A stretch of 64,000 bases of DNA from Tsuneonella suprasediminis (lineage in GTDB: Bacteria > Pseudomonadota > Alphaproteobacteria > Sphingomonadales > Sphingomonadaceae). Below the pieces are notes generated by a model. It saw only the letters and a list, made by a program, of their open reading frames with translations, was not told the origin of the DNA and did not search any database. Made by a program: the position numbers and the translations under genes. Shown piece after piece: positions 12,043 through 59,923 of this stretch. The DNA is taken from the NCBI RefSeq assembly GCF_003605755.1, contig NZ_RAHJ01000018.1:620001-684000 (forward strand), in the 5' to 3' direction. Every line of letters begins with the position of its first letter. The first letter of the stretch is position 1.

Positions 12043-14622
12043 ATGAACCTCGAAAAATTCACCGACCGCGCCAAGGGCTTTATCCAGAGCGCGCAGACCG
12101 TAGCTATCCGCATGAACCATCAGCGGATTACCCCCGATCACCTGCTGAAAGCGTTGCTGGAAGATAGCGAAGGCATGGCAGCGGGCCTCATCACCCGCGC
12201 CGGGGGCAATCCGGCGATTGCCGTGCAGGAAGTGGACAAGGCGCTGGGCAAGATCGCTGCGGTGTCCGGTTCCGGCGCGCAATCGACTCCCGGCCTCGAT
12301 AACGACAGCGTGCGTGTGCTCGATCAGGCCGAACAGGCTGCGACCAAGAGCGGCGACAGCTATGTGACTGTCGAACGCCTGCTGCTGGCGCTGACGCTGG
12401 CGACGACCAGCAATGCCGGACAAGCCTTGAAAGCGGCCAATGTGACCCCGCAGGCTCTGGAGGCAGCGATTACCGAACTGCGCGGCGGCCGTCAGGCGCA
12501 TTCAGCCGGGGCGGAAGATGCCTACGATGCGATGAGCAAATATGCGCGCGACCTGACCGAAGCGGCGCGTTCGGGCAAGCTTGACCCGGTGATCGGCCGC
12601 GACGAGGAAATTCGCCGTACGGTGCAGATTCTCGCTCGGCGGACGAAAAACAATCCGGTGCTGATCGGTGAACCCGGCGTGGGTAAGACGGCGATTGCCG
12701 AAGGGCTTGCGCTACGTATCGCCAATGGCGACGTGCCTGACAGCCTGAAAGACCGCAAGCTGATGGCGCTCGACATGGGCGCACTGATTGCGGGGGCAAA
12801 ATATCGCGGCGAATTCGAAGAGCGGCTCAAGGCCGTGCTCGACGAAGTCAAAGGCGCGAACGGCGAAATCATCCTGTTCATCGACGAGATGCACACCCTG
12901 ATCGGAGCAGGTGCCAGCGAAGGCAGCATGGATGCGGGGAACCTGCTCAAGCCTGCTCTCGCGCGGGGTGAACTGCACTGCATCGGTGCGACCACGCTCG
13001 ACGAATATCAGAAATACGTCGAGAAGGACGCCGCTCTGCAGCGCCGGTTCCAGCCGGTGTTTGTGGGCGAACCGACGGTGGAAGACACCATCAGCATCCT
13101 GCGCGGGCTGAAAGATCGTTACGAACTGCACCACGGTGTGCGAATCACTGACGGCGCGATTGTCGCCGCCGCAACGCTTTCCAACCGGTACATCACCGAC
13201 CGTTTCCTGCCCGACAAGGCGATCGACCTGATGGACGAAGCGGCCAGCCGCATCCGCATGGAAGTGGAGAGCAAGCCGGAAGAAATCGAAAATCTCGACC
13301 GGCGGATCATCCAGCTCAAGATCGAGGAACAGGCGCTCGGCAAGGAAAGCGATCAGGCGTCAAAGGACCGCCTCGCCCATCTGCGCGAGGAACTGGCCAA
13401 TCTGGAACAGCAGTCGAGCGAATTGACGACCCGCTGGCAGAACGAACGCGACAAGATCGCCGCGGAAAGCAAGATCAAGGAAGAACTGGATCAGGCCCGC
13501 ATCGAACTGGAGCAGGCGCAGCGCGAAGGCGATCTCGCCAAGGCGGGGCAGCTTTCCTATGGCCGCATCCCTGAACTGGAAAAGGCGCTCGCCGCCGCGC
13601 AAGGTCAGGCGCAGAATGCGCTGCTGCGCGAAGAGGTGACCGAAGACGATATCGCCTCTGTCGTCAGCCGCTGGACCGGTGTGCCGGTGGACAAGATGAT
13701 GGAAGGCGAACGCGACAAGCTCCTCAAAATGGAGGAGATGATCGGTACGCGCGTGATCGGTCAGGAACAGGCGGTTGCTGCTGTGTCCAAGGCCGTTCGC
13801 CGGGCGCGAGCGGGGTTGCAGGATCCAAACCGACCGCTGGGCAGCTTCCTGTTCCTCGGCCCGACCGGGGTCGGCAAGACCGAGTTGACCAAGGCATTGG
13901 CTGGCTTCCTGTTCGACGACGACAGCGCGATGGTGCGGATCGATATGAGCGAGTTTATGGAGAAGCACGCCGTCGCCCGCCTGATCGGTGCCCCTCCGGG
14001 CTATGTCGGTTATGAAGAGGGCGGGGTACTGACCGAAGCCGTACGCCGTCGCCCCTATCAGGTGGTGCTGTTCGACGAAGTCGAGAAGGCGCACACCGAT
14101 GTGTTCAACGTGCTGCTGCAAGTGCTCGATGACGGGCGGCTGACCGATGGGCAGGGCCGGGTGGTGGACTTCTCCAACACTCTGATCATCCTGACCAGTA
14201 ACCTCGGCAGCCAGTACCTGTCGAACATGACCGACGATCAGAAAGTCGAGGATGTCGAGCCGCAGGTGATGGATGTGGTGCGCGGGCATTTCCGCCCCGA
14301 ATTCCTCAACCGGCTGGATGAAATCATCCTGTTCCACCGGCTGGGCGCGGAGCATATGGCGCCGATCGTCGAAATCCAGATCGCGCGGGTGCAGAAGCTG
14401 CTGAAAGATCGCAAGATCACTCTCGACCTGACCGAAGCAGCCCGCAAATGGCTGGGCCGTGTCGGCTACGATCCCGTCTATGGCGCACGCCCGCTAAAAC
14501 GCGCCGTACAACGCTACGTCCAGGACCCGCTGGCCGAAAAGATCCTCAGCGGCGAAGTGCCCGATGGCAGCACCGTACGGATCGATGAAGGCGATGGGGA
14601 GCTGAAGATGGTTGTGGAGTGA
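12043..14622 (+). CDS. clpB: ATP-dependent disaggregase ClpB
   Basis: 859 residues. ClpB pulls proteins out of aggregates together with DnaK. Domains in order: Clp N domain (1-145), first AAA+ module with Walker A GEPGVGKT at 209-216, the long coiled-coil middle domain (about 410-530, rich in E, L, Q and R), second AAA+ module with Walker A GPTGVGKT at 606-613, and the C-terminal D2-small domain ([16 protein letters not shown]). There is no ClpP-binding IGF loop, as expected for ClpB. A heat-shock type promoter is visible just upstream. The gene appears to be monocistronic. Confidence 0.97.
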
Positions 14623-14950: not shown

Positions 14951-17900
14951 TTAGAATTTTGCACGGAAACCAGTGTAGAACCGGCGACCAAACACATCGT
15001 AAATCGCACTGCCCGAAGTCAGACCCGAAGCGCTAAGCGGCGGGTGCTTATCGAACAGATTGTCGACGCCTACGTAGAATTCAAACGGACGGTCACCTTC
15101 GGAACCACCAACCTGCCACGCTGCACGGATGCCGTGGTAAAGAACGCTGGGGAACTTGCTGACTGGATAGCCATCGGGATTGAGGGCTGGATCGCCGTTC
15201 ATCGGGAAGTAATCTTCATAAGAACCGATATACATCGGGCCGATGAAGTGAGCTTTATAACCAAACGTGAAGTCATCCACAGTCAAGTCCGCATACAGAA
15301 CGAATTCGTCTTTAGGATTACCCAACTCGGAAAGTACCCGGTTTTCGAAATCTGGGTTGGTTGAGTCTTCGTAATTGCTCGATTTCAGCCCGTGCGTGTA
15401 ATATGCCCGCGCAGCCAAGAAGGTACTCGGTGCGAGTTCCGTCCGGTAGTTTACGTCCACATCAATGCCTCGACGAACGCGCTTTGCGAAGTTGACCGGC
15501 CCCTCAATGAGCGAGCCAACCAGAATCTCTCCTGGAACTTCACCGTTCGGACCAGTGCCAGTACCGGTATAACGCTGAAACTGATCGCAAAACGGATTGC
15601 CTGCTGGAAGATCGTAGCAATTGTTGACGATCGCCTGAGCACCCACCGACGAAATCACGTTATTCACCTTGATATCGTAATAATCGACGGTGATCGCGAG
15701 ACCAGGAACCCACCGTGGCTGAAAAACCGCACCGATGGTCAGCGAGTCGGATGTCTCAGCTGTAAGGTTGGGATTACCACCCGACATAATCTCGAGCGAG
15801 TAAGTACCTGAAACTTTCGTCTGGAACGACGTGTTTGTCAGATTTGCTCCCAACGCCGCCTGACATGCCGCCTGACGGTTGTCAGTACCCTGAGTCAGTC
15901 GAACTGTCGCGCAGGGATCTTGGAATGAGGCAAAGTTTTGGCTGAGAGGGCTATCGGTTTCAGTGTAGTTAGGTGCACGGATGGCGTGACCGAAATTGGC
16001 GCGGAACGTGATATCCCGCACCGGGGACCAACGGCCACCGAAATTATATGCCCAAACCGTTCCAGCAGAGTTGTTGTAATCAGAAACGCGTGCAGCACCG
16101 CTGAACGACAATTCCTCAAAGAATGGCTGGTTGGCAAAGACGGGAATTTCGATTTCCCCGAACGCTTCTTTCACTTCGACAGGGTTTGGATCGAATGTGG
16201 CCAGCGAGTTGAGGAAGGTCAGGCCCTGATTAATTACGTCGTCTGCTTTGAAATAAGCATTTTCACGGCGATATTCGCCGCCGACAACCAGCGAGACTGG
16301 GCCGCCGGGCAGTTCGAAGAAACCGCTCGTGTCGCCGGAAACGAAGGCCATCGCATCGAACTGGCGCAAGTGCCCTTGGGAACCAGCATTCGATACAATG
16401 TAATCCTTGGCACGGCTGTTGTCGCCCAATCCGAAGGGATTATAAGCTACACACTGTGCAATATCGTTGGCGAGTGTTGCGGCTCCGCCTTCTGCACTCA
16501 CGTCCGGGGAAGCATATGCAGCATTGGGGTCGAACTGAGAACGACACTCGATCTTCCCGGTAGCAGGATTAATACCTGCATCCATCGCAAGCATCAGACG
16601 TTGAACGTTAACATTGCCCAGGACTTTGATGTCTTCTTTAGTCTCGCCGTAGTTAGCAGAAACTTCGTAGGACCAGTTCTTGCTAATCTGGCCGCGAGCG
16701 CCGACGACAATACGATAAGTGTCGCGAGTCGCATCTTCATCACGGATACCCAAATCAGTAAAAGCACGGGCAGATTCAAAGCGATATGTCCCGTTTGCAA
16801 TTGCTGTACGGTCTGCAGCAGACAGCGGGCCGAAGACATTTACGATACCGTTGTTGTTCCCTGATGCAAGCAGAGCATTAGTAATCGTTGTACGTGCTTG
16901 CTGGCTCAGGAACGGATTGTCGAGCCGATACTGTGCGCGTTCATCGTTAAAAGTAATGTATTGGCCTTGGTTGAAAGCAGGGCCGGAATTGGAGCCGGTC
17001 GACCGGATATGTGCCCATTTTGCCGAAGCAAACAGCTCAAATGCATCGCTGAACGTATAATGACCCATAATTGAGCCAACATACCGCTCGCTCGAAGGGT
17101 AGACTGAAGTCTGTTCACCTTCGTTGCCCGTTTCGGCATTTCCGCCGATATATGAACTGTAAGGAGACGTCCCGATACGTTCATCAAACGTAACAGGAAC
17201 AAGTTCGCCGCTTGGGGTGAAGATGTAGTCACAATTGAAAGGCGTGCCGCCTAGGGTAAGTCCACCACAAGCCGCATTGCCGACATTCTGAGGGAACGAA
17301 ACGAGGCCAGTCCGCGAAATAGTTGCAGAACGAATGTCGTCGAAGAATGTCCGATCAGGAGTGCCGTCAAACCTTTCGCCGGTTGGATCGACTTGGGTCG
17401 TCACAAATCCCACTTGATTGCGGCGCCAAGGAACCTGAGACGCGAAAAGCCGCTTCTGACGGGTATACTCGATTGAAGCGGAGATGTTGCCGCGCCCGTC
17501 GCCGAAGTTCTTCCCGCCGGTAGCGGAAGCAAAGTAGTTCGCGCCCGCGCCGTATTCCGGAGTGCCAGCACCGCCACGAACGATGAGGCCGTCGAAATCT
17601 TTCTTCATGATAAAGTTCACGACGCCAGCTATCGCGTCAGAACCATATACGGCTGAGTTGCCGCCAGTTACTATGTCAACGCGTTCTACCAGATCGGTTG
17701 GGATCGTGTTGATATCAACTGCCGACGCAGTCACCTGAAGGTCGCTCGGAACATGGCGTCGACCGTCGACCAATACGAGTGTGCGCTGAATTCCGAGGCC
17801 GCGAAGATCGAGCAAGTTGAGGCCGGCAACGCCGATCCCCAAGCCTGGATTCGACTGAGCATAGGTACTGCGCAGCGCAGGCAATTCGTTCAACGCTTCA

Positions 17901-18166
17901 CCAAGATTGTGCTCACCTTGTTTGTAAATGGTGTCGCCGCCGAAGGTGGTTACCGGAACGGTGGAGGTGATCTGTGGGGAGCGGATACGTGAGCCAGTGA
18001 CAATAATTGCCTCTGATGCTTGATCTGTAGAATCCGCTTCAACGGTGGTGTCGTCACTGGCGTCCTGTGCGACTGCCGGGCTGGAAACCAGCATCAGAGC
18101 AGCGATTCCGGCACCTGCAAACAGGTGGCCCTTTCTGCTCCAGGCAGAAATACGCGAGTTGTTCAT
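14951..18166 (-). CDS. TonB-dependent outer-membrane receptor, long Oar/carbohydrate-type
   Basis: 1071 residues. The N-terminus has a signal peptide ending near AVAQ, an acidic linker, a TonB-box-like EAIIVTGSRI, then the plug domain with LRGLGIQRTLVLVDGRRHVPSD and VDIVTGGNSAVYGSDAIAGVVNFIMK. The 22-strand barrel ends with the aromatic GFRAKF. Receptors with this plug in sphingomonads import large nutrients such as glycans or peptides; the ligand here is unknown. The start at 18166 is preceded by TTGGGGAC, nearly the same leader as the second receptor at 26107. Base composition is lower in GC than the neighbouring genes (28 of 60 bases G or C at 16741-16800), which may signal transfer. It is related in architecture to the receptor at 22925-26107. 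Confidence 0.92.
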   Translation of the reverse strand: MNNSRISAWSRKGHLFAGAGIAALMLVSSPAVAQDASDDTTVEADSTDQASEAIIVTGSRIRSPQITSTVPVTTFGGDTIYKQGEHNLGEALNELPALRSTYAQSNPGLGIGVAGLNLLDLRGLGIQRTLVLVDGRRHVPSDLQVTASAVDINTIPTDLVERVDIVTGGNSAVYGSDAIAGVVNFIMKKDFDGLIVRGGAGTPEYGAGANYFASATGGKNFGDGRGNISASIEYTRQKRLFASQVPWRRNQVGFVTTQVDPTGERFDGTPDRTFFDDIRSATISRTGLVSFPQNVGNAACGGLTLGGTPFNCDYIFTPSGELVPVTFDERIGTSPYSSYIGGNAETGNEGEQTSVYPSSERYVGSIMGHYTFSDAFELFASAKWAHIRSTGSNSGPAFNQGQYITFNDERAQYRLDNPFLSQQARTTITNALLASGNNNGIVNVFGPLSAADRTAIANGTYRFESARAFTDLGIRDEDATRDTYRIVVGARGQISKNWSYEVSANYGETKEDIKVLGNVNVQRLMLAMDAGINPATGKIECRSQFDPNAAYASPDVSAEGGAATLANDIAQCVAYNPFGLGDNSRAKDYIVSNAGSQGHLRQFDAMAFVSGDTSGFFELPGGPVSLVVGGEYRRENAYFKADDVINQGLTFLNSLATFDPNPVEVKEAFGEIEIPVFANQPFFEELSFSGAARVSDYNNSAGTVWAYNFGGRWSPVRDITFRANFGHAIRAPNYTETDSPLSQNFASFQDPCATVRLTQGTDNRQAACQAALGANLTNTSFQTKVSGTYSLEIMSGGNPNLTAETSDSLTIGAVFQPRWVPGLAITVDYYDIKVNNVISSVGAQAIVNNCYDLPAGNPFCDQFQRYTGTGTGPNGEVPGEILVGSLIEGPVNFAKRVRRGIDVDVNYRTELAPSTFLAARAYYTHGLKSSNYEDSTNPDFENRVLSELGNPKDEFVLYADLTVDDFTFGYKAHFIGPMYIGSYEDYFPMNGDPALNPDGYPVSKFPSVLYHGIRAAWQVGGSEGDRPFEFYVGVDNLFDKHPPLSASGLTSGSAIYDVFGRRFYTGFRAKF

Positions 18167-18429: not shown

Positions 18430-18975
18430 TCATTGTACCCGCTTACCTTTCACTCCGGGCTGGCCGTTGATGCGGAGAAAATAGCTCGAAAGCGCCCCTT
18501 TCTTGATTTCGATCTTCTGGCCAGTTTTCGGAGTCATCAGTCGATTAGGAACCTGACTCAACGACCAGACGGCCCCTTCCTCGGTGGTGATCAGGTAGCC
18601 AGTAGACCGTGATCCGCCGACCGCTGCGATCGTGGTTTCGAGCTGTTCAAAATCTTGCTCATCTTCTTTATCGCCCCGACTTTTGAAAATGCCAAAATCA
18701 GGGAGGCCAAATCCAAATAACGACCGGCGTGTTTTGCGCACGTCTTCACGGTCTACGATTCTCAACTCACCTTCTTCGTCGGCGGAAAGAAGAGTGCTTA
18801 CAGCTTTGTCGAAGCAGGCGAGGCGCGCTTCGGCAACGGATTCATTCTGGCAGGCGCGCAATGCTTCCAGATGCGGGCTGTCGTCTTTACTTGAACTGTC
18901 TTTGGCTGCAGCTTGTCCACCTGTCATGCCGAGAATTACACCGGTAGCGACGATAGATAGATGCCTACAGGCCAT
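18430..18975 (-). CDS. Conserved exported protein of unknown function
   Basis: 181 residues with a signal peptide (MACRHLSIVATGVILGMTGGQAAAK). The mature part opens with ALRACQNESVAEARLACFDKAV, a paired-cysteine helix motif seen at the start of many small periplasmic proteins of alphaproteobacteria. It continues with a charged region (SRGDKEDEQDFEQLE) and a C-terminal part with beta-prone segments (TGYLITTEEGAVWSLSQV, KIEIKKGALSSYFLRING) that resemble an SH3-like fold. No enzyme motif is visible. It is on the same strand as the receptor downstream, 263 bases away, and may belong to the same lower-GC block. Confidence 0.7.
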   Translation of the reverse strand: MACRHLSIVATGVILGMTGGQAAAKDSSSKDDSPHLEALRACQNESVAEARLACFDKAVSTLLSADEEGELRIVDREDVRKTRRSLFGFGLPDFGIFKSRGDKEDEQDFEQLETTIAAVGGSRSTGYLITTEEGAVWSLSQVPNRLMTPKTGQKIEIKKGALSSYFLRINGQPGVKGKRVQ

Positions 18976-19141: not shown

Positions 19142-19423
19142 ATGCTTCAGGTATTCTTAGTCATGGCCGCTGCGGCAGCGACGCCCGCCAATGCTGACAA
19201 GGCGCAGAATACTGTCCCCGAAGGGCAGGAAGTTACGACCGTCACGCCTGAGGCGGGCGCTAAACGGGCGGCCAGCGAGGTTGTTTGCGTGCGTCAGCAG
19301 GAAGTCGGATCGCGCCTCAAGGCTCAGAAGGTCTGTAAAACGCGCGCAGAATGGGATGCACAAAAGCGGGAACAGCGTCAGGCGGTCGACAAGGCGCAGG
19401 CAGCACGCTGGAAAAGCAACTGA
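19142..19423 (+). CDS. Small exported protein with VCVRQ...KVCKTRAEW motif
   Basis: 93 residues. A short hydrophobic start (MLQVFLVMAAAAATPANA) could be a signal peptide. The mature part has a conserved two-cysteine motif, VVCVRQQEVGSRLKAQKVCKTRAEWDAQKREQRQ, which I recognise as recurring in unnamed small proteins of sphingomonads. The spacing suggests a disulfide-bonded hairpin followed by a basic helix. Its function is unknown. It is alone on the plus strand and is followed directly by a good intrinsic terminator at 19440-19475. Confidence 0.7.
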   Translation: MLQVFLVMAAAAATPANADKAQNTVPEGQEVTTVTPEAGAKRAASEVVCVRQQEVGSRLKAQKVCKTRAEWDAQKREQRQAVDKAQAARWKSN

Positions 19424-19439
19424 GGCTAACCCAGTATTC

Positions 19440-19475
19440 GGGGTATCGGCTAACTGGTTGGATACCCCATTTTTT
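19440..19475 (+). terminator. Intrinsic terminator of the small exported protein gene
   Basis: Stem GGGGTATC/GATACCCC with a 13-base loop, followed by a run of six T. It overlaps the final codons of the convergent sulfotransferase gene (stop at 19450). On the minus strand no T run follows, so it works for the plus strand only. Confidence 0.8.
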
Positions 19476-21327
19476 CTGCCCAGGGGCGAAGGATGGGCAT
19501 AACCGGCTCCAGATGAGCGGCATATCGTACCCAACGCCCCTTAGCGCGGGTGTATAGTTCTTCGCCGATTTGTGAATAGCTTGCCGTTCGCACCCGGCCG
19601 CGTTGTTTCGCGGTTTCCGTGTGGGCGAGCATCCGGTCATTCCACTCGATGCCCAGCCAGTCGACCAGCGGGCGCAATTCTCCGCCGGTGTCATCGACCA
19701 GACGTTCGTATCGGATCGCCATGTGGTTGACGGGGAAGAGTTCGATGCTGCGTTCCCATGCGCGGAATACCGCATCATACGTAAGCGCGGATTCTTCAAG
19801 CGAAGTGAAGCTTCGCATCGCGAGATTCATCGTGAAGTTCGCCATGAAGCAGCTTAGCACCACGTCGTAAGGATGCCGTTCCGCAAGGATAAAGCGGGCG
19901 TCTGGAAACAGGCGGTGAATTGTCGGCACACGCTGCATGTTGAGTGGGTGCTTGTCCACCAGCCATCGTGTGTCGTCCCACCCGTAATGGCGGGCGGAAT
20001 TGAAGTAGATTGCGCGCAGTTCGTCGAGCCGGTCCGCAGGCAGAGTGGCAAGATCGGCGCCTTCCATCTGCTTGATCGTATGGGCGACCATTGGCCGTTC
20101 TTCCAAGACGGAAAGTTCGGGCTGGCCCATCAGCATAGTATCGAGCAGCGTTGTGCCGGAACGGGGAAATCCGACCAGAAAAACCGGGTCGCGCATTCCA
20201 TCGCCCGGCCGATAGGCTGCCCATCCTGCGGCCCAGTCGGCTGTCCATTCCGCCAGTTCGCTTTCGACCTGAGAGCGGAAACTCTCTTCCGTGAGGGGAG
20301 GGCTGTTTTCGACTGCCGCCCGATTCATTGCCTCGAATGCCGCAAAGGCAGTGTCGATGTCTCCCCGCCTGTCCGCAATCCCGCCGACAAGGTGATCGCG
20401 GCGCATTGGGTGAATGCTCTCAGGGATTTTTGCGGCAAACTCAGCCGCTTTGTCAAAATCACTTGCGCGTCGGGCTTGCCATGCGAACAGGAATGCTGCC
20501 TCGGGGGGCGCCTTGTCCTGATCGACCGATGCGGCCAGCGCGTCGAGATCGTCCACGCGGTTGAGGTTTTCGTAGATCATCCCGAGTTCGATGTGAGCGT
20601 CACTGAATTCGGGATGCAATTCGATGGCCCGCCGCAAGGTGGCAATCGCAGCGGGCATATCGTCGAGCTTCGCCTGTGCGACCCCCAGATCGACGAGAAT
20701 GCCGATATCGTCGGGTGCCACTTTCAGGGCATCGGTCAGGACTTTGCAATGCGCCTCTGTCCGGTCTGCCTTTCGTAAGGCTTCGGCCAGATTGGTATAG
20801 ATCGCCAGATCGGCGGGCGCGAGTGTGATAGCCTGTTCGAAGGCCTCGATGGCACCGTCGTAATCCCCGGTTTCCGACAGGGTGTTGCCAAGGTTGTTCC
20901 AACTCGACAGATCGTTAGGGTTGCTGGCCACCGCACGGCGATAACAGGCGATGGCTTCGTCTGTCGCTCCCGCGTTCTGTTTGAGATAACCCTCAATGCG
21001 GGCCATGCCGGGTTCCTGACGCCCGCTGACGAGCGCCAGCGCCTCTCGCTCTCTGCCCACGCTGATCAGTGCATTGGCGAGGTTTGCTCTGCTGGCATGA
21101 TCGGCGGGGTTGCGCTCGATCAGTTCCTGCAGGAAAGGGACGGCACGATCCGGTTCTTGCAACCGGAGCGCGGCAAGGCTGGCGATGGCCAGAAACGGCG
21201 CGCGATCGGCCGCGCCCGATATGCCGGCTTCTGCCAGCGACAGGGCGGTCCGTGGATCGTCGGACCGCAGAGCCTGCATCGCGGCGAGGATTTCTTGCGG
21301 AGGGGCGGTGATCGTTGCTTTGTTCAT
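19450..21327 (-). CDS. TPR-repeat sulfotransferase
   Basis: 625 residues in two parts. Residues 10-340 form tetratricopeptide repeats (for example NDLSSWNNLGNTLSETGDYD and the following repeat). Residues 375-620 form a sulfotransferase domain, with the 5'-phosphosulfate loop PVFLVGFPRSGTT at 381-393 and a 3'-phosphate-binding type segment IRYERLVDD further on. The family transfers sulfate from PAPS to a hydroxyl or amine; the acceptor is unknown. The start at 21327 lies four bases after the stop of the upstream TPR-oxygenase gene, with a GAGG ribosome-binding site inside it, so the two are translationally coupled. No signal peptide is seen, so it acts in the cytoplasm. Confidence 0.9.
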   Translation of the reverse strand: MNKATITAPPQEILAAMQALRSDDPRTALSLAEAGISGAADRAPFLAIASLAALRLQEPDRAVPFLQELIERNPADHASRANLANALISVGREREALALVSGRQEPGMARIEGYLKQNAGATDEAIACYRRAVASNPNDLSSWNNLGNTLSETGDYDGAIEAFEQAITLAPADLAIYTNLAEALRKADRTEAHCKVLTDALKVAPDDIGILVDLGVAQAKLDDMPAAIATLRRAIELHPEFSDAHIELGMIYENLNRVDDLDALAASVDQDKAPPEAAFLFAWQARRASDFDKAAEFAAKIPESIHPMRRDHLVGGIADRRGDIDTAFAAFEAMNRAAVENSPPLTEESFRSQVESELAEWTADWAAGWAAYRPGDGMRDPVFLVGFPRSGTTLLDTMLMGQPELSVLEERPMVAHTIKQMEGADLATLPADRLDELRAIYFNSARHYGWDDTRWLVDKHPLNMQRVPTIHRLFPDARFILAERHPYDVVLSCFMANFTMNLAMRSFTSLEESALTYDAVFRAWERSIELFPVNHMAIRYERLVDDTGGELRPLVDWLGIEWNDRMLAHTETAKQRGRVRTASYSQIGEELYTRAKGRWVRYAAHLEPVMPILRPWAEKMGYPTS

Positions 21328-21331
21328 AGCC

Positions 21332-22840
21332 TCAGGTCTGTTTCGGGCGGGCAATGTCAAACGCGACGGTTAACCGTTCGCCTTCGGTAAATGGTCGCGT
21401 ACCATGCCACATCGTTGATGGGAACAGGACCAGTCTGCCGACCTTCGGCTCCACAACCTGGCGCGGGGGCAGCGATGGCAACAGATCATGTTCCGTGCCC
21501 AGCGTCAGCCACCCTGCCTTATGGCCCTGATCTGCCAGATCGGGCAGCGCGACGTACAATGCAGAGCTTATCCAGCCCTGACTGTGGACGTGATCGCGAT
21601 GAAAACCGCTGCCGGATAATCGCACGGACCACGATCCGGCAATGCGCTGCGGCTCACGCACTGCGATGGCGGTCGGGTGATTGTCCGTGGCGGGGGGCAA
21701 ACCGTCCACATATTCTGCGACCGCTGCGCGCAAAACCTTGCGGAGTTCGTTGATCGGCTCCTCATCGCGAAGCAACAGATTGCCGTCGGTTTGCGTTCCG
21801 CCATGCACCGATTGATCCAACGGGGCCGCGCTGGCGAAATGCAAAGAGCGCAAGTGTTCGGCCAGCTTTGGCAGGTTGGGCAGCTTGTCCGCCAGCTCGA
21901 TCACTTTGACCAGTGCCGGATCTCCTTCCAGCCACTTTGCTTTCGGATCGTCGGTCAGTCGCCATGCCAAGGCGAGGTACGGCAGCAGAATTCGGTCTGT
22001 GTCCAGATGCAGCAGTGGCTCTGCAAGCGCGCGAACGTCGTCGCCGCGCTCGTTGCGTAGCATCCAGCGTGCGTGCAGACTGGCATCGTTTGGCGTAGTA
22101 GGGGAAGGCAGGCGCGCGAATAGTGTTTCGGCCGCGCTTTTCTGCCCGGCCTCGGATGTCGCGTGCGCTTCGAGCAGGGATATCCACCCCCGCTCTCCGA
22201 TTGTTTGCCGTGCCTGTTTAAGCGCGTCGAGCGCGCCAATCGGGTCCGGCGTTTCGAGTAAGAGCGAAACCCGCAGATGGTGAAGAGGCTCAGCGCCGGG
22301 ATGCGAGATCAAGGATCGGTCGAGCGCCTCCGTAGCCGGTAAGCCGAGCTGGCCGCGAAGGTGGGCGAGGGCGCGATGACCCTCCAGCCACCCGGGATTG
22401 TTGCCAAGAATAGCAGAAAGCCCCTCCATCGCATCCTGAGCGCGGCCTTCAGCGATCAGCGCGGCAGCATGGCCTTGCAAGACTTCGCCGTTTTGCGGGG
22501 CAAGGCGGATGGCGGTTTCGAACAAGGCCACTGCCGGTTTGCCCGCTTCCATCGCGGTGCGGGCGAGCGAGTGTGCGATAAGCGGGTCGGCGGAGGCATA
22601 TTTGGCCGCTTTTTGGAATGCCTTGTACGCCAGCCGGCTTTCGCCTGCATTACGCGCCGCGATCCCCACCAACTGATGCATCCGCGCATCGCGCGAATGG
22701 CGGCGCGCAGCCTCACGCGCGCAGGGCAGCAACAGTTCGGGATAATCGTTTCGGATGAGGTCGAGCCCGGCGGAGAACGCGTTCGCCGCATCGTCGATGG
22801 GAAACGCGGAAACGATCCGGGTGGCTGCGGTGCGGTCCAT
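21332..22840 (-). CDS. TPR-repeat 2OG-Fe(II) oxygenase family protein
   Basis: 502 residues. The first 330 are alpha-helical TPR-like repeats. The C-terminal 170 form a double-stranded beta helix of the PF13759-like oxygenase type: SGFHRDHVHSQGWISSALYVALPD holds candidate iron ligands (His417/His419), MWHGTRP has His479, and Arg489 in GERLTVAFDIARP is placed to bind 2-oxoglutarate. The family hydroxylates proteins or small molecules; the substrate is not known. No signal peptide. It is the first gene of a two-gene operon with the sulfotransferase and is flanked on both sides by TonB-dependent receptors. Exact iron ligand choice is inference. Confidence 0.82.
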   Translation of the reverse strand: MDRTAATRIVSAFPIDDAANAFSAGLDLIRNDYPELLLPCAREAARRHSRDARMHQLVGIAARNAGESRLAYKAFQKAAKYASADPLIAHSLARTAMEAGKPAVALFETAIRLAPQNGEVLQGHAAALIAEGRAQDAMEGLSAILGNNPGWLEGHRALAHLRGQLGLPATEALDRSLISHPGAEPLHHLRVSLLLETPDPIGALDALKQARQTIGERGWISLLEAHATSEAGQKSAAETLFARLPSPTTPNDASLHARWMLRNERGDDVRALAEPLLHLDTDRILLPYLALAWRLTDDPKAKWLEGDPALVKVIELADKLPNLPKLAEHLRSLHFASAAPLDQSVHGGTQTDGNLLLRDEEPINELRKVLRAAVAEYVDGLPPATDNHPTAIAVREPQRIAGSWSVRLSGSGFHRDHVHSQGWISSALYVALPDLADQGHKAGWLTLGTEHDLLPSLPPRQVVEPKVGRLVLFPSTMWHGTRPFTEGERLTVAFDIARPKQT

Positions 22841-22866: not shown

Positions 22867-22898
22867 AAATGAAAATGGCGGACCCGAAGGCCCGCCAT
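22867..22898 (-). terminator. Terminator of the second receptor gene
   Basis: Arms ATGGCGG and CCGCCAT with an inner CC/GG pair and a CGAA loop; one mismatch. On the minus strand it is followed by TTTTCATTT. It sits 50 bases after the receptor start-to-stop unit ending at 22925 and just before the TPR-oxygenase start, so it separates the two transcripts. Confidence 0.7.
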
Positions 22899-22924
22899 CT
22901 TCTGTTTCGTTGTGTGTGAACGAC

Positions 22925-25900
22925 TTAGAAGTCCAGCGTCACACCTGCGTAGAGGTAACGACCGATTGCGTCGTAGGTCTGTGCATAGACGTTGCCGTTA
23001 CAGGTACCAGCCGGGCAAGCCTGGCTGCCGGTGACCGGCGGTGCCTTGTCGAACACGTTGTTCGCGCCGAAGCGGAACTTGTAGTGATCGCCCACATCCC
23101 AGGTCAGCGCCAGATCGAAGTAATCGACCGACGGGAACGCGGCCACACCCGGACGCGCAACACCACCCGGAGCCGGGCCGTTGCTGCTGGTGTTGCTCAG
23201 GTTGGTGTTCGACGACAGCGCATCCAGAGTCACGCCGTCGAAGTGGCGCCAGCGAACCGACATGCCCACGCCCGACGGGAGGTCGAAGCCGAAGCGAGCC
23301 TGGTGACGCCATTTCGGCGTCGGTGTGCCGCAGACGTTACCGTACAGACCGACGCAGCTGTAGGTCTGGTCCGCGTTCGGGATATCAACTCCGGTGTCAA
23401 CCACATAACCCTTGCTGCCGTTGAGGTACGTACCAACGAACGAAGCACTGAACCGGCCGCCGAGAACATCAGCAGTGTAGTTCGCCGCGACGTCGATGCC
23501 CGAGGTCGAAATTCCTCCGATGTTCTGCGACAGGTTACTTACGTATCCTTGCGAGGTACGCCACAGCGAACCTGACGGGTCGCGGTTAATCAGCCCGCAG
23601 AAGAACGGATCGGCTGTCTCAGTACAAACGTTGACGATCGTATCAGCGCCGATGCCACTGATCGCTTCCTTCACACTGATGTCGAAGTAATCAATGCTAG
23701 CGCTGAAGCCGGGCAGGAAGCTCGGCTGAAGCACAACACCAACGGTGTAGGTATCGGCCTTTTCAGGTTCCAGCGACGTGTTACCGCCGATCAGGCCGTT
23801 GTACTGACCTGCCGGGTTCGCGGCCACGACCTGACCAACGGTCAAACCCTGTGCCAGACAGCCGGTGTCGGCCGCCGTGATCGCGAAGCCCGCGCACGGA
23901 TCGGTCGTGCCGTCGAGAACGACGCGTTGCGGTGCGAACAGATCCTGAATTGTCGGTGCGCGAACGGCCCGGTTGTAACCACCGCGGAAGCGGATGTCAC
24001 GGATCGGTGCGAACTCACCTTCGATCTTGTAAGTATCGGTCTGATTGCCGGTGTTATAGTCCGAATAACGGTAACCGGCAGTGATCTGCAGGTCATAAAT
24101 CCAGCTATCCTGAACCAGCGGAATGCGGACTTCGGTGAAGACTTCCTTCACATCGAACGAACCTTCGACCGGCAGAGTTGCTGCACCCTGACCAGAGAGA
24201 TCGCCGGTCTGGAATGCCGTGTCCGAATAGAACTCCAGCTTTTCCTTGCGGTATTCGGCACCGATTACGAGGCCGATGCCTTCGTTCGCCCACGGCGATT
24301 TGATGCCGTATTCGCCGAGTGCGCCGCTGAAGTAACCCGAAGCCACCTGTTCGGTGTTGATGCCGCGCTGGAATCCGGGCGTCGACAGATAAGCAATCGA
24401 TGCGGCGGACGGGGCGGTTACGCCCGGGTTGAAAATATCCCAGGGAACGCAGTTCGGATCGGTGCCGTCGAGCGTCGAGCGACAGACCGGAGTGACGCCA
24501 TCGGGACCAAGCACAACGTCGAGTGCACGGTTGAGGCGCGTGACCGAGAAGTCGTTGGTGTAGGTTTCAGCGAAGTTGGTGCGGCCGTACTGGTAGTAAA
24601 TGTCGTAAGACCATGCCGAACCCAGATCGCCACGTGTACCCAGCACAGCGCGGTAGCTGGTGTGCTGGAGATCGTCACGACGCGCGCCGCCTTCAACGTT
24701 ACGACGCAGAATCTGTGCGAAACCACGTTGGTACGTGGCGCCAGTTGCCTGATCGATAAAGTTGAACGGGGTGGTGCCCAGCGGCGGTTCGCCGATATCG
24801 CGATCGATGCGAGCCTGATTTTCCACTGCGGCGTTGCCGACCACGAAGAACGCATCGCCCGGATATGGGCTGACCAGCAGGTTTTCGTTGGCGCAAACAA
24901 CCGATTTCTGCGCCGGGCTGAGGAGCGGGTTGTCGCAGTTAAGCGACAGGGTGTTTCCGAAGTTACCCGACGGAGCGATCTGGGCGACCGTGCGGTCGTC
25001 CATGAACATGAACTCCATGTAGGGGTGCAGCGCTTCCGAAATTTCGTAGTCCGCGAACACACCGGCGGTGTAGCGTTCGTCAGGACGCTGGAAGTAGTTC
25101 AGCGGTGCGTAGTTGTACGGCGTCGCACCGGGAAGGATCGTGCGATTGGCACCGAACTGATAGGTCAGTGAGGTGAAGTCGCTGGTCCGCGGATCGGTGC
25201 TGCTGTAAGCGTAAAGCGTGCCAGTTGGCGAAGTGCCTGAGCCACCGCAGGTGTACTTGTTCGCGCCGCCTTCCACAGCTGCTGCTGTGCTCGCTGACAG
25301 GGCGCAGGCCGAATAATCGCGGTTGGCCTGAAGCACAGGGTTGATCTTGCGATAACCGAAGTAGCCCATGATGTGGCCACGACCATCGTCGAAGCTGGTG
25401 CCGAATGCCGCCGTGGCATCGAACGATGCACCGTCGGTGTTCATCCCGGTCGGATAACCGAAGCCGCGAGCGTCCAGAGCGTTGGTGATCGACGGATCGT
25501 TGCGGCTCTTGTGGTTGTAGATCGACGACTGAACGTCGAGCTTGAAGCCTTCGAAATCGGTGTCGATGATGAAGTTCACAACGCCTGCAACCGCGTCCGC
25601 ACCGTAAACCGACGAAGCGCCGCCGGTCAGAACGTCGACCCGCTTCAGCATGGCGGCGGGGATCACGTTGATGTCGGCAGCCGACGTGGTCGGATCGCCG
25701 GGAACGAGGCGGCGGCCGTTCAGCAGAACCAGCGTACGTTCATCGCCAAGGCCGCGAAGGTCGAGCGTCGCCGTACCCGAGGCACCGTTCGAAATGTTGG
25801 AGCCCTGCGATGCGAAAACCTGCGGCAGCGCGTTGACGAGATCTTCCACGCGCGTCGTACCCGTCTGGGTAACTTCCGCGGCGCCGATCACGGTAACCGG

Positions 25901-26107
25901 GCTGGCCGATTCGAGGTTAGGCTGCTTGATGCGGGTACCGGTGACGATGATCGCCCCGGCGGTTTCGGTTGCGTCTGCACCGGCAGCAGGCGAAACGCCG
26001 ACGGATTGATCGTCGGTCGCATCCTGAGCCATCGCCGGCGTCGCCAGCATGGCGAGGCTGACAGCCAGCGGTGCAACGCCAGCTTTAAGGATGGTAGAAT
26101 CCCTCAT
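22925..26107 (-). CDS. TonB-dependent outer-membrane receptor
   Basis: 1060 residues. Signal peptide ending near PAMAQ, acidic linker, then GAIIVTGTRIKQPN as TonB-box region. The plug reads LDLRGLGDERTLVLLNGRRLVPGD and KRVDVLTGGASSVYGADAVAGVVNFI, and the barrel ends YLYAGVTLDF. It resembles the receptor at 14951-18166 in length, plug and leader (AAGGGGACTAAATTTC before the ATG). The start at 26107 is chosen because it begins the signal peptide; the frame is open to 26185. Base composition is like the rest of the chromosome (37 of 60 G or C at 24601-24660). The neighbouring downstream genes on the same strand are the TPR-oxygenase and TPR-sulfotransferase, behind a terminator. Confidence 0.93.
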   Translation of the reverse strand: MRDSTILKAGVAPLAVSLAMLATPAMAQDATDDQSVGVSPAAGADATETAGAIIVTGTRIKQPNLESASPVTVIGAAEVTQTGTTRVEDLVNALPQVFASQGSNISNGASGTATLDLRGLGDERTLVLLNGRRLVPGDPTTSAADINVIPAAMLKRVDVLTGGASSVYGADAVAGVVNFIIDTDFEGFKLDVQSSIYNHKSRNDPSITNALDARGFGYPTGMNTDGASFDATAAFGTSFDDGRGHIMGYFGYRKINPVLQANRDYSACALSASTAAAVEGGANKYTCGGSGTSPTGTLYAYSSTDPRTSDFTSLTYQFGANRTILPGATPYNYAPLNYFQRPDERYTAGVFADYEISEALHPYMEFMFMDDRTVAQIAPSGNFGNTLSLNCDNPLLSPAQKSVVCANENLLVSPYPGDAFFVVGNAAVENQARIDRDIGEPPLGTTPFNFIDQATGATYQRGFAQILRRNVEGGARRDDLQHTSYRAVLGTRGDLGSAWSYDIYYQYGRTNFAETYTNDFSVTRLNRALDVVLGPDGVTPVCRSTLDGTDPNCVPWDIFNPGVTAPSAASIAYLSTPGFQRGINTEQVASGYFSGALGEYGIKSPWANEGIGLVIGAEYRKEKLEFYSDTAFQTGDLSGQGAATLPVEGSFDVKEVFTEVRIPLVQDSWIYDLQITAGYRYSDYNTGNQTDTYKIEGEFAPIRDIRFRGGYNRAVRAPTIQDLFAPQRVVLDGTTDPCAGFAITAADTGCLAQGLTVGQVVAANPAGQYNGLIGGNTSLEPEKADTYTVGVVLQPSFLPGFSASIDYFDISVKEAISGIGADTIVNVCTETADPFFCGLINRDPSGSLWRTSQGYVSNLSQNIGGISTSGIDVAANYTADVLGGRFSASFVGTYLNGSKGYVVDTGVDIPNADQTYSCVGLYGNVCGTPTPKWRHQARFGFDLPSGVGMSVRWRHFDGVTLDALSSNTNLSNTSSNGPAPGGVARPGVAAFPSVDYFDLALTWDVGDHYKFRFGANNVFDKAPPVTGSQACPAGTCNGNVYAQTYDAIGRYLYAGVTLDF

Positions 26108-35041: not shown

Positions 35042-36688
35042 TTAGAAGCTGAAGCCAGGCTTCACATCGCCGGCATTGGCGGTGCGCTGCTTGTCGCGCT
35101 TGCTCTTCTTGCGGTTGTTCTTCGCTTGCTTGCCGCGTGCCTGATCCTGTTCGGCGGCACGCAACGATGGCAGCATCGCTTCCAGTTGCGAGATTTCCGC
35201 GTCAGGTGTCTGCCCGCCGCCGTTGCCGAGCGTGGGGCCCGGCCGCTGACCGGCGGCGCCGGATTTGCCTGCGTTGTCCTGCATTCCGAAGTAGCGTTGC
35301 AGTTCGTTGGCGGATTGATATCCATCGGTCGGCAGCTTGATTTCGTTGCCGTTCACCGGATTGACGAGATAGGGGGTGACGATAATCACCAGCTCTGTCT
35401 CGCCGTTACGGAACGAGGTCGAACGGAACAGATTGCCGAGGATCGGCACATCGCCCAGACCCGGCGCCTTTTCGATAGAATTCTGCGCGTTGGTGCTCAT
35501 CAGACCAGCGATCATGAAGCTTTGGCCCGAACCCAGTTCGATAGTGGTTTCAGCGCGGCGCACAGTCAGCGCAGGGATCTGGAAACCACCGAGCGACACT
35601 GCGCCCTGGCTCGACAGTTCCGACACTTCCGGCCGGACCCGCAAGGATATGCGGCCGTTGGCCAGAACCGTCGGTGTATAAGCAAGGCTGACGCCGTATT
35701 TGCGGTATTCAACCGAGGTCGAACCCAGTCCCTGACTGATCGGGATGGGGAATTCGCCGCCGGCGAGGAAGTCCGCCGTCTCACCTGACAGTGCCGTCAG
35801 GTTTGGCTGCGACAGCGTGGTGACCAGACCGACACGCTCTGCCAGATCGAGCGCGCCGATGATGTCGAGACCGAACAGGCGCCCTGCGGCCCCCAGCGTC
35901 GATCCGCCGCTGATCGGCTTAATCGATGATCCTTCGACAGTAATCGTCTTGGTCGGATCCAGCGGATCGGGAATGATCGTTTTGACCGATTGCCCCATTC
36001 CCAGTGTCTGACCGGGGCCGACATACTGATTGGGGGAGAAGCCTTCACGTCCGCGACCGATACCGAACTGGAAACCGTCGGTGCTGTCGATGGTCTTCAG
36101 GTTTACCCCCAGTTCACGCACCAGCGAGCGGCTGACTTCCGCGAATTTGACCTGCAGGTTGACCTGCAGCGGCGTGGCGGTTTTCAGACGGCTGATGACA
36201 TTGGCTTTATCGCCGACGAATGCCTGCACCAGTCGTTCGGCCTCCGCTGCATCTTCGGGTGCAGCGACCGTACCGGTCAGCAGAAATGTTTCCGTCCCCA
36301 TCGTGGCAACCGAAATCTTGGCCTCTGGCATGGCCAGCGCCAGCATCTGATCGACGCTGTCGATGTTCGATCCGACCCGCACATCGGCAGACCAGATCAC
36401 ATCGCCCGCCTTGTTGCTGGCATATACGGTTGTGACACCGCCGGATTTGCCGAACAGGTAAAGCTGACGGGCCGACTTTATCTGCACGTCCGCAATGCTG
36501 TCGTTCGCGACAAATACATCGGACATAGTGCCCGGAATATTGATCAGTTCCCCCCGTCCGATCGACAGGTTGATGCTGCGGCTGGGCGATACAGTGCTCT
36601 GTGCCTCGGCAGGTGCGGCGGGCAGGCCCACCAGCGGGAGCGCGGCCGCACCGGCAATCAGCAGAGAAGAAATAAGGCGGCGTTTCAT
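35042..36688 (-). CDS. cpaC: Tad pilus outer-membrane secretin CpaC
   Basis: 548 residues with a signal peptide (MKRRLISSLLIAGAAALPLVG). The N-terminal pilus-secretin domain (LSIGRGELINIPGTMSDVFVANDSIADVQIKS) and a BON-like region (TVAAPEDAAEAERLVQAF) are followed by the secretin domain (VGLVTTLSQPNLTALSGETADFLAGGEFPIPISQ and the VRRAETTIELGSGQSFMIAGL segment). It forms the gated pore for the pilus. The C-terminus is a lysine/arginine-rich tail. The start at 36688, with an AGGGGC ribosome-binding site, gives the signal peptide. The frame upstream is open to 36742 without homology. Confidence 0.94.
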   Translation of the reverse strand: MKRRLISSLLIAGAAALPLVGLPAAPAEAQSTVSPSRSINLSIGRGELINIPGTMSDVFVANDSIADVQIKSARQLYLFGKSGGVTTVYASNKAGDVIWSADVRVGSNIDSVDQMLALAMPEAKISVATMGTETFLLTGTVAAPEDAAEAERLVQAFVGDKANVISRLKTATPLQVNLQVKFAEVSRSLVRELGVNLKTIDSTDGFQFGIGRGREGFSPNQYVGPGQTLGMGQSVKTIIPDPLDPTKTITVEGSSIKPISGGSTLGAAGRLFGLDIIGALDLAERVGLVTTLSQPNLTALSGETADFLAGGEFPIPISQGLGSTSVEYRKYGVSLAYTPTVLANGRISLRVRPEVSELSSQGAVSLGGFQIPALTVRRAETTIELGSGQSFMIAGLMSTNAQNSIEKAPGLGDVPILGNLFRSTSFRNGETELVIIVTPYLVNPVNGNEIKLPTDGYQSANELQRYFGMQDNAGKSGAAGQRPGPTLGNGGGQTPDAEISQLEAMLPSLRAAEQDQARGKQAKNNRKKSKRDKQRTANAGDVKPGFSF

Positions 36689-36752
36689 AGCTTTGCCCCT
36701 CGTGTGAAATCCGAAACCCGGAATGGAATGCGTGGCGTTCATCGTGCAGTCC

Positions 36753-54836: not shown

Positions 54837-54874
54837 ACTATCCTCCCCTGCATCCGCTCGCTTGCGGATGTTAT

Positions 54875-57370: not shown

Positions 57371-57389
57371 CAGAATCTCCTCTCCATAT

Positions 57390-57424
57390 ATGACAACGTT
57401 TACCGCTGTTATGACAACGTTTAC
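57390..57424. promoter_or_regulatory. Tandem 14-bp LacI-type operator copies, 21 bp apart
   Basis: ATGACAACGTTTAC occurs at 57390-57403 and again at 57411-57424, identical in all 14 bases, exactly 21 bp from start to start (two DNA turns). The core AACGTT is palindromic and TGACAACGTT resembles operators of LacI-family sugar regulators. They lie 19 bases upstream of the GH3 GTG codon, in the gap shared with the LacI-family gene. Confidence 0.75.
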
Positions 57425-59757: not shown

Positions 59758-59923
59758 AACCAATATATCTTGCGTCTGTTAACCGATATGCGCGTGCTCT
59801 TCCTTCATGCCGTGGGTAAACTGGTTGCTGCTAGCGGCGATATGCGCGAATTGGTTTTCTGCGGTGCCTTTCAGAAAGACTCGCAATTTTTTACGCAAGG
59901 GTGGTTTGGAAGGAACAGGGTTG

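Follow-up and report, generated by a model that had tools for sequence, protein, structure and literature searches.

In the window, a 64,000-nucleotide stretch of the Tsuneonella suprasediminis genome, two neighboring genes encode a TPR-oxygenase (OX) and a TPR-sulfotransferase (ST). The neighborhoods in which genes of these two kinds recur point to a protein-modification system linked to TonB-dependent receptors (TBDRs). The features of the locus are given in Table 1; genes were called with a longest-ORF script rather than a coding model. The fusion of TPR repeats to an oxygenase domain and to a sulfotransferase domain, proposed in the sequence-only reading of this DNA, is supported by Pfam in both cases (PF13759 and PF13469), and each of these families has a single match in the genome. 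The same reading held the two genes to be translationally coupled; the 4-base gap is there (TGA-GGCT-ATG), and coupling may be supposed from this spacing. It also placed the pair between two receptors. Both have Plug and barrel domains, but the left one is not adjacent, as s93 and s181 intervene. About 17 TBDR-related genes were counted in this genome by reading of the match list. When the best 13 or fewer candidates per genome were scored, the nearest relative of the right receptor was found in genome G023 (65% identity), where OX and then ST likewise lie downstream.

Table 1. Features of the OX/ST locus (coordinates refer to the window)
Feature	Coordinates	Strand	Basis
TonB-dependent receptor, 'TB1000' type, 1060 aa, upstream of the pair	22925..26107	-	Pfam Plug + barrel
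Terminator-like hairpin, 14 bp, UUCG loop, receptor/OX interval	22871..22902	-	-28.2 kcal/mol, z -5.3
OX, TPR + PF13759 2OG-Fe(II) oxygenase, 502 aa	21332..22840	-	Pfam
OX catalytic domain, residues 403-495, H417-x-H419 ... H479 ... R489	21356..21634	-	Pfam, alignment, fold model
OX/ST gap, 4 bases; GAGG Shine-Dalgarno-like motif overlapping OX stop codon	21328..21331	-	Sequence
ST, TPR + PF13469 sulfotransferase, 625 aa from ATG	19450..21327	-	Pfam
ST catalytic domain, residues 381-564, PRSGTTL loop	19636..20187	-	Pfam, alignments
s93, 93-aa ORF, signal-like N-terminus, convergent to ST	19142..19423	+	Sequence
s181, 181-aa secreted-type protein	18430..18975	-	ORF, alignment
Second TonB-dependent receptor, 1071 aa	14951..18166	-	Pfam Plug + barrel
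clpB-like gene, 859 aa, site landmark, outside the system	12043..14622	+	Name by reading of sequence

Because a strong hairpin separates the right receptor from OX, co-transcription may need read-through. A consensus terminator scan did not return this hairpin, and no promoter-like site was found directly upstream of OX. Such hairpins were considered as a special mark of receptor-enzyme junctions and rejected, since they occur at 20 of 23 junctions, yet other receptor genes carry them at their 3' ends too, in 65 of 88 cases.

OX matches TPR_19 and, at 67.6 bits against a cut-off of 27, PF13759 (2OG-FeII_Oxy_5); its score for PF13640 was 24.9 bits, under the 27-bit cut-off. In an alignment of 42 homologous domains, H417-x-H419, H479 and R489 are conserved in 100%. 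The histidine pair noticed earlier is thus H417-x-H419, with H479 and R489 in addition, but the carboxylate of the usual H-x-D is missing. The second His of H-x-H is also present in 2rg4 and in phage relatives. Since PF13759 is without the canonical iron-binding carboxylate, hydroxylase activity of OX is not certain. The model of the domain (pLDDT 70, pTM 0.76) appears to share its fold with 2rg4/3bvc and with the protein prolyl hydroxylases P. putida P4H (which binds EF-Tu), PHD2 and OGFOD1, so that Pfam gathering score and predicted 2OG-oxygenase fold agree on PF13759 membership. Unlike the prolyl hydroxylases, OX has H-x-H for H-x-D and an N-terminal TPR array. The best TPR match was TTC0263 for OX alone and OGT for the OX family profile. 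Among NCBIfam profiles, no YbiX/PiuC-family model matched OX at E<=0.01, and a contig scan for close OX relatives turned up a single match, restricted to the TPR part, in a Bacteroidota MAG. A role as a defence gene was dismissed; PADLOC returned solely a generic 2OG model (E 1e-5) labelled CRISPR-associated.

ST matches many TPR models, its best natural TPR match being OGT, and PF13469 (Sulfotransfer_3, 124.7 bits). By sequence, its catalytic domain is nearest to TPST2/TPST1 (E 1e-12), the next non-TPST match being CurM (1e-6). R389, E410, K459 and S583, which we take from the roles and numbering of TPST to be the four catalytic positions, are invariant in 16 homologues and 94-100% conserved in an alignment of 53 domains that numbers them one higher. 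The sequence thus presents a putative TPST-like domain with a PAPS loop and the R/E/K/S set. R101 and R105 of TPST2, presumably the readers of acidic substrates, align with P and H in ST. ST, compared here with TPST sequences, departs from the TPST/RaxST type in that these arginines are not kept and the domain is fused to a TPR array. An EE-x-P pattern search (0/53) was uninformative, the spacing being off by one for the window protein. OGT and human AspH likewise join a TPR superhelix to a catalytic domain; they differ from OX and ST in the catalytic domains themselves and in the link to bacterial outer-membrane receptors seen here.

That link is seen for both enzymes. At a distance of up to 1.5 kb, 25/42 OX genes and 33/47 ST genes have a TBDR, compared with 12 of 271 control genes (Fisher P 4e-17 and 7e-24, related loci being counted as independent and the HMMs for TBDR, OX, ST, ASPH and s181 having drawn part of their training data from these loci). 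The remaining 17/42 OX and 14/47 ST genes have none within this distance, some of them at contig ends. One TBDR subfamily, defined at E<=1e-100 with the best 15 or fewer candidates scored per genome, comprises 11 genes in 10 genomes, and a TPR-ST is adjacent in 10/10; in G046, which has two such receptors in tandem, it stands next to the first. A third recurrent TBDR neighbor is ASPH, a TPR protein with a PF05118 Asp/Asn hydroxylase domain, although no TBDR_R-family gene is listed within 4 kb of 25/37 ASPH genes. At least 34 of 61 genes (62 rows) for receptors of the window type lie no more than 4 kb from OX, ASPH or a listed ST, in a survey that used 42/46 OX rows (4 TPR-only rows were dropped), 37/37 ASPH and 30/37 s181. 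TPR-ST occurs with two dissimilar receptor types, and the type of partner follows the ST clade (on the ST tree the TB8 label requires 5 changes versus 22.9 when shuffled). It should be noted that TPR-ST is not receptor-specific, a TBDR being recognized in only 3/20 phylum-wide TPR-ST loci.

Could such linkage be no more than inherited synteny? Many of the loci share the clpB site and are therefore not independent, and OX-ST proximity within the order exceeds chance only modestly (5 observed versus 0.82 expected, P 0.0016). Against this, the linkage recurs off clpB, in other families and in another class, and partner type goes with ST clade; an explanation without any functional linkage thus seems very remote. 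Of the earlier idea of a modification-and-uptake system, the receptor link gains from the TBDR excess and from distant OX-ST-TBDR clusters, and modification from the resemblance of both domains to protein-modifying enzymes.

The pairing of OX with ST is less general than the link of each to receptors. In the same order and on the same strand, the pair was found among the loci fetched only here and in G023 (L034), so that the expectation of a conserved pair beside receptors was borne out in strict form by one fetched relative, while each enzyme is recurrently TBDR-linked. Receptor- and OX-linked ST occupies four places on the ST tree (4 changes), including one in another class. The arrangements include OX-ASPH-ST-TBDR in the same class (L158, whose long branch makes its placement unsure) and TBDR-TBDR-ST-OX in another class of the same phylum (L162). 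A listed ST was present within 5 kb of only 5/42 OX genes, one of the five a fragment, and OX was inside 0/40 ST-centred loci (chosen from the matches listed, with no more than two from any genome and mostly with match lengths of the TPR type). These counts do not support, as an obligatory pathway, the proposal that one substrate is hydroxylated and then sulfated.

The clpB-like gene, with 57 matches in 56/60 genomes, provides a landmark at which the enzymes can be compared. OX, ST, ASPH or mixtures lie near at least 25 of the 57: 11 loci have OX alone, 5 ST alone, 4 ASPH alone and 5 mixtures, with 32 having none; here and in the 4-kb survey ST is undercounted, as the ST matches used were part of those listed. 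In the genus of the window, 9/10 other genomes have at least one of the three near clpB. With 20 of the 25 enzyme-bearing loci holding one kind only, among the ST listed, an obligatory two-step pathway is not favored. Different chemistries near one landmark suggest instead that the enzymes are interchangeable options, combinable as here, and our best reading is that OX, ST and ASPH are alternatives more than obligatory steps.

The closest known systems are CciT-CciO of Caulobacter, Fiu-YbiX of E. coli and PiuA-PiuC of Pseudomonas/Acinetobacter, each a TBDR with a 2OG-oxygenase gene in conserved linkage. As for CciT-CciO, proximity of the two genes across species is seen for the OX loci (25/42). 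Oxygenases of the CciT-CciO type are small, non-TPR and apparently of another family; here the enzyme is of TPR-PF13759 type and is accompanied by a TPST-like sulfotransferase. CciT is an Fe importer, whereas here the receptor is long, and its relatives of solved structure match it in the plug alone (BtuB best), so that they give no indication of the ligand. PF13469 and 2OG enzymes also modify small molecules, and CurM, a small-molecule case, is among the ST matches. Action on a receptor-imported ligand, siderophore-like or another small molecule, as proposed for PiuC/PiuA and YbiX/Fiu, is nevertheless unlikely. TPR arrays are typical of protein binding and are found in OX, ST and ASPH alike, and OX and ST stand closest to enzymes that modify proteins. 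Moreover, three chemistries with one receptor family near one landmark would be odd for a single ligand, and TPR-ST accompanies two dissimilar receptor types. The ligand explanation does have the closest functional precedent, CciO/PiuC ligand metabolism being discussed in the excerpts of PMC12004943. The same excerpts call the precise function of CciO unknown and describe the role of TBDR companion oxygenases as unsettled.

Modification of a polymer or lipid of the cell surface (LPS, capsule, ornithine lipid), with receptor proximity reflecting a shared envelope theme, would suit the 17/20 phylum-wide TPR-ST loci with no recognized TBDR; sulfotransferases modify glycans, and lipid hydroxylases, LpxO among them, belong to PF05118. 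We regard it as quite unlikely, given the pairing of TPR-ST with one TBDR subfamily in 10/10 genomes and because the OX neighbors recurring in at least 3 loci included no family recognized as belonging to glycan or lipid biosynthesis. The clusters were clpB, thiolase/SDR/enoyl-CoA-hydratase-type, methyltransferase, TPR-AspH, ST, prmC, prfA, aldehyde dehydrogenase, one small ORF family and antisense ORFs, named by eye except for methyltransferase and AspH.

The TPST-like ST also brings to mind RaxST, described in article excerpts as acting on RaxX, and two proteins of exported type, s181 and s93, are encoded nearby. Maturation of a small secreted peptide, imported or exported via the receptor, is even so highly unlikely: no conserved small ORF or dedicated precursor gene, such as the TPST/RaxST type would have, was recognized beside the enzymes among 1969 small ORFs from 119 loci. 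When these ORFs were clustered, three clusters of 3 loci each emerged; two overlie clpB, which leaves the third as a possible exception. s93 has no Pfam match, no Tyr, and one clear homologue (L036) with weak ones in few loci. s181 is more widespread, with matches in 30/60 genomes (its own included); Cys 42 and Cys 54 are invariant across 30 aligned copies, and 21 of the best 30 listed copies have a TBDR_R-family, OX, ASPH or ST gene no more than 4 kb away. Its single-sequence fold model was unusable (pLDDT 40).

A substrate signature was sought on the receptors themselves. Tyr in acidic context occurs at 0.61 per 1000 aa in ST-linked TB1000 receptors (n=17) versus 1.34 in enzyme-free ones (n=23), and at 2.05 (n=27) versus 1.56 (n=11) for TB8. 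Total Tyr is somewhat higher in ST-linked receptors of both types. No column of the receptor alignments stood out for Tyr enrichment (best p 0.057), and columns of OX-linked receptors probably reflect phylogeny. Acidic-Tyr density and column enrichment were accordingly discarded as giving no usable signal.

We tentatively favor, at somewhat less than even odds, TPR-guided protein-modifying enzymes that are dedicated to TBDRs and act on the precursor of the receptor or on a protein linked to it. The set would comprise a 2OG oxygenase with the PHD/P4H fold and a sulfotransferase resembling TPST, joined in relatives by an Asp/Asn hydroxylase. The TPR superhelix would hold an unfolded protein in the cytoplasm, a location suggested by 2OG and PAPS being cytosolic and by OX and ST having no signal peptide by eye. 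There the catalytic domain would hydroxylate or sulfate side chains before export of the target, which may be the precursor of the receptor or an exported protein linked to the receptor, s181 for example. The outcome may be altered exposed loops or altered receptor stability. As a precedent for the proposal as a whole, PMC12004943 reports that deletion of cciO, which encodes a different oxygenase, lowers CciT receptor protein with CciT mRNA unchanged. It is possible, though doubtful, that interchangeable enzymes of this kind decorate the receptor chain before export so as to give chemically different versions of one receptor among strains.

No TPR-sulfotransferase companions of TBDRs were found in the listed titles and abstract openings of openly licensed PMC papers. 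Should the receptors prove to be the target, their modification would be of a form likewise absent from those titles and abstract openings, with a bearing on uptake specificity and on escape from phages or bacteriocins. TBDRs are numerous in such bacteria, and the natural swaps of ST, OX and Asp-hydroxylase near one landmark offer a ready-made comparison of the receptors of close relatives. If the proposal is true, receptor decoration could tune ligand binding or evade the phages and bacteriocins that use the receptor.

The OX and ST genes were found in the window with the domains and positions assigned to them by the sequence-only reading, and the 4-base spacing between them was likewise confirmed; a GAGG motif spans the OX stop codon at this junction. 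Each catalytic domain is matched once in the genome (PF13469, one match; PF13759, one match). The pair is flanked by TonB-dependent receptors (TBDRs) of 1060 and 1071 aa, as had been proposed, but on the left two ORFs, s93 and s181, intervene. The predicted s93 product has a signal-like start and no match in Pfam; one of its homologues is clear and a few others are weak. For the right receptor, similarity to solved relatives is confined to the plug, with BtuB the best match. A strong hairpin (-28.2 kcal/mol, z -5.3) lies between the right receptor and OX; it is present in both relatives that were folded and absent from the list returned by a consensus terminator scan. Among sampled receptors, similar hairpins were found at 20 of 23 receptor-enzyme junctions and 65 of 88 other receptor ends. 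Since hairpins lie 3' of most sampled receptors, the OX-ST pair may be expressed downstream of the receptor or independently.

Features of the window (positions are window positions)
Feature	Position	Strand	Description
clpB	12043-14622		clpB-like landmark gene
Left receptor	14951-18166	-	TBDR
s181	18430-18975	-	secreted-type 181-aa ORF between ST and left receptor
s93	19142-19423	+	93-aa ORF between ST and left receptor, convergent to ST
ST	21327-19450	-	625 aa; TPR, C-terminal PF13469 sulfotransferase domain
OX	22840-21332	-	502 aa; TPR, C-terminal PF13759 2OG-Fe(II) oxygenase domain
Right receptor	22925-26107	-	TBDR
Flp pilus genes	35042-37847		RcpC/CpaB, secretin
Glycosidase locus	52203-59763		TBDR, GH3 and GH6 genes together; putative beta-glucan utilisation-like locus

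Conservation was assessed in sets of 60 genomes, always this genome plus 59 relatives. OX was matched in 34 of 60, in two by the TPR part only, and 6-20 kb was fetched around 40 places in the 33 other OX-matching genomes. A TBDR lay within 1.5 kb of 25 of 42 OX-domain ORFs, the window's included (28 of 42 within 3 kb), and of 33 of the 47 ST ORFs reaching 300 aa in 40 loci that we picked among the matches listed, as against 12 of 271 control genes from 20 regions of OX-bearing genomes (Fisher P 4e-17 for OX and 7e-24 for ST, related loci being counted as independent). The predicted linkage to receptors is thus upheld. Conservation of the pair itself is narrow: among the loci fetched, the same order and strand recurred only in one relative (G023, locus L034). 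Among the matches listed, 5 of 42 OX genes had an ST no more than 5 kb away (0.82 expected, P 0.0016), namely those of this genome, G023, G045, G059 and G008, the last with an ST fragment. Neither OX nor ASPH, a third enzyme in which TPRs are fused to a PF05118 Asp/Asn hydroxylase domain, was found in the 40 chosen ST loci. In five OX loci (L041, L044, L046, L050, L058) a SAM-methyltransferase-like gene of about 304 aa lies between OX and the receptor.

Searches with receptors as query gave a reciprocal picture. One TBDR subfamily (E<=1e-100; 11 genes, spread over 10 of 60 genomes) is adjoined by a TPR-ST in 10 of 10 genomes (loci L097, L099, L101, L102, L104, L105, L107, L109, L112 and L113), following two tandem receptors in L102. 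The family of the right receptor, hereafter the window type, is present in 42 of 60 genomes at E<=1e-60. Of its 61 genes (62 rows), at least 34 (35 rows) have OX, ASPH or ST no more than 4 kb away, ST being counted among the matches listed (by rows OX 24, ASPH 13, ST at least 8); the chance expectation for OX or ASPH is about 0.6% per receptor. Five more have s181 as sole partner at this distance. Conversely, a window-type receptor lay within 4 kb of 23 of 42 OX and 12 of 37 ASPH genes, and one of these receptors or enzymes within 4 kb of 21 of 30 s181 genes. The s181 ORF is itself a recurrent receptor neighbour, at times with none of the three enzymes nearby; it has two invariant Cys, and its score against VasI (17.8 bits) is far below the 124-bit cut-off.

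ASPH occurs in 27 of 60 genomes, at the same loci as OX and ST, and had no match in this genome. The clpB genes that served as landmark number 57 and occur in 56 of 60 genomes. With ST counted among the matches listed, at least 25 of the 57 have one or more of the enzymes no farther than 13 kb away (11 with OX alone, 5 with ST alone, 4 with ASPH alone, 5 with mixtures), and at most 32 have none. A TBDR was present in the fetched stretch at 23 of these 25 loci; none was recognised in that of L063, where OX stands at the contig end, and the G003 locus was outside the stretches fetched for this count. The ten other genomes of the genus carry OX (3), ST (5), OX with ASPH and an ST fragment (1) or s181 only (1), again among the matches listed for ST. 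Different chemistries at one site in close relatives speak for OX, ST and ASPH as alternative modifications and against an obligatory sequence of hydroxylation and then sulfation. This genome has a second clpB-like gene (G000:C6:19128-21698; 83% identity to the window copy), with no listed OX, ST, ASPH or s181 within 13 kb.

Across the phylum the OX domain is rare (9 of 249 genomes, this one counted), and the ST domain occurs commonly (104 of 249). OX, ASPH, ST and a TBDR cluster in L158 (G205; same class, another family), and two TBDRs, ST and OX in L162 (G185; another class). A TBDR was recognised in only 3 of 20 phylum-wide ST loci (L184, L187, L191), so the TPR-ST family is not receptor-specific. 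In one 1.9-Mb genome with 18 PF13469 matches, four TPR-sulfotransferase genes stand in tandem (L124, G054:C91, 802-7821). In a tree built from 78 ST domains, the ST of the window and that of L034 form sister branches (support 100/98) within a clade of 27 rows, of which 9 are receptor-linked, all to the long window type, and 18 lack a receptor. With gains and losses both counted as changes, the label for the other receptor type required 5 of them (22.9 after shuffling) and that for OX plus receptor 4, with L158 on a long branch.

Among solved structures the ST domain is nearest to tyrosylprotein sulfotransferases 2 and 1 (E 1e-12), the first match outside these being CurM (E 1e-6). Residues R389, E410, K459 and S583, which we take to be the counterparts of TPST2 R78, E99, K158 and S285, are invariant in 16 homologues and 94-100% kept in 53 domains. 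The arginines R101 and R105 of TPST2, presumably its readers of acidic substrates, are not conserved in ST. Designed TPRs, then OGT, best match the TPRs of ST and of the OX family profile; for OX alone the best TPR match is TTC0263. A model of the OX domain (8-sequence alignment, pLDDT 70, pTM 0.76) is nearest to the uncharacterised PF13759-type 2rg4 (Z 16.9) and 3bvc (Z 16.5) and also near the protein prolyl hydroxylases P. putida P4H (16.0), OGFOD1 (15.2) and PHD2 (about 15), rows within 1 Z being counted as tied. H417-x-H419, H479 and R489 are present in 42 of 42 domains; the H-x-H is shared with 2rg4 and phage relatives, so the usual carboxylate ligand appears to be missing across the PF13759 family. 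The H-x-H...H...R signature recurs in PF13759-like proteins, small and stand-alone, that are encoded on viral contigs (L218, L222-L226, L228, L230).

The three TPR-fused enzymes accompany receptors and replace one another; OX and ST have protein-modifying enzymes as their nearest relatives, and ASPH has an Asp/Asn hydroxylase domain. We therefore favour as their putative target the receptor chain or an exported protein linked to the receptor, such as s181; decoration of a surface polymer or lipid seems improbable. Maturation of a small secreted peptide is more doubtful still, no precursor having been recognised in a small-ORF comparison of the loci. ST-linked receptors of the window type show no enrichment of acidic-context Tyr (0.61 vs 1.34 per 1000 aa), and those of the other type only a small excess (2.05 vs 1.56); in both types, linkage to ST goes with a somewhat larger total Tyr content (38.4 vs 31.0 and 47.5 vs 42.1). 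No single Tyr column stood out.

Bacterial tyrosine sulfotransferases are already known from RaxST (PMC6637879, PMC4216712), and PMC13001220 concerns another TBDR operon. PMC12004943 names CciT-CciO, Fiu-YbiX and PiuA-PiuC as TBDR-oxygenase partners. Among the papers listed, no title or opening of an abstract described TBDR companions in which a sulfotransferase, an oxygenase and an Asp-hydroxylase, each fused to TPRs, replace one another. That such companions act on a ligand imported by the receptor we consider unlikely. Deletion of CciO, an oxygenase different from OX, lowered CciT receptor protein with mRNA unchanged (PMC12004943), an effect that fits receptor modification and is no demonstration of it. 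The receptor chain, or its linked exported protein, would in the favoured reading be modified in the cytoplasm before export.
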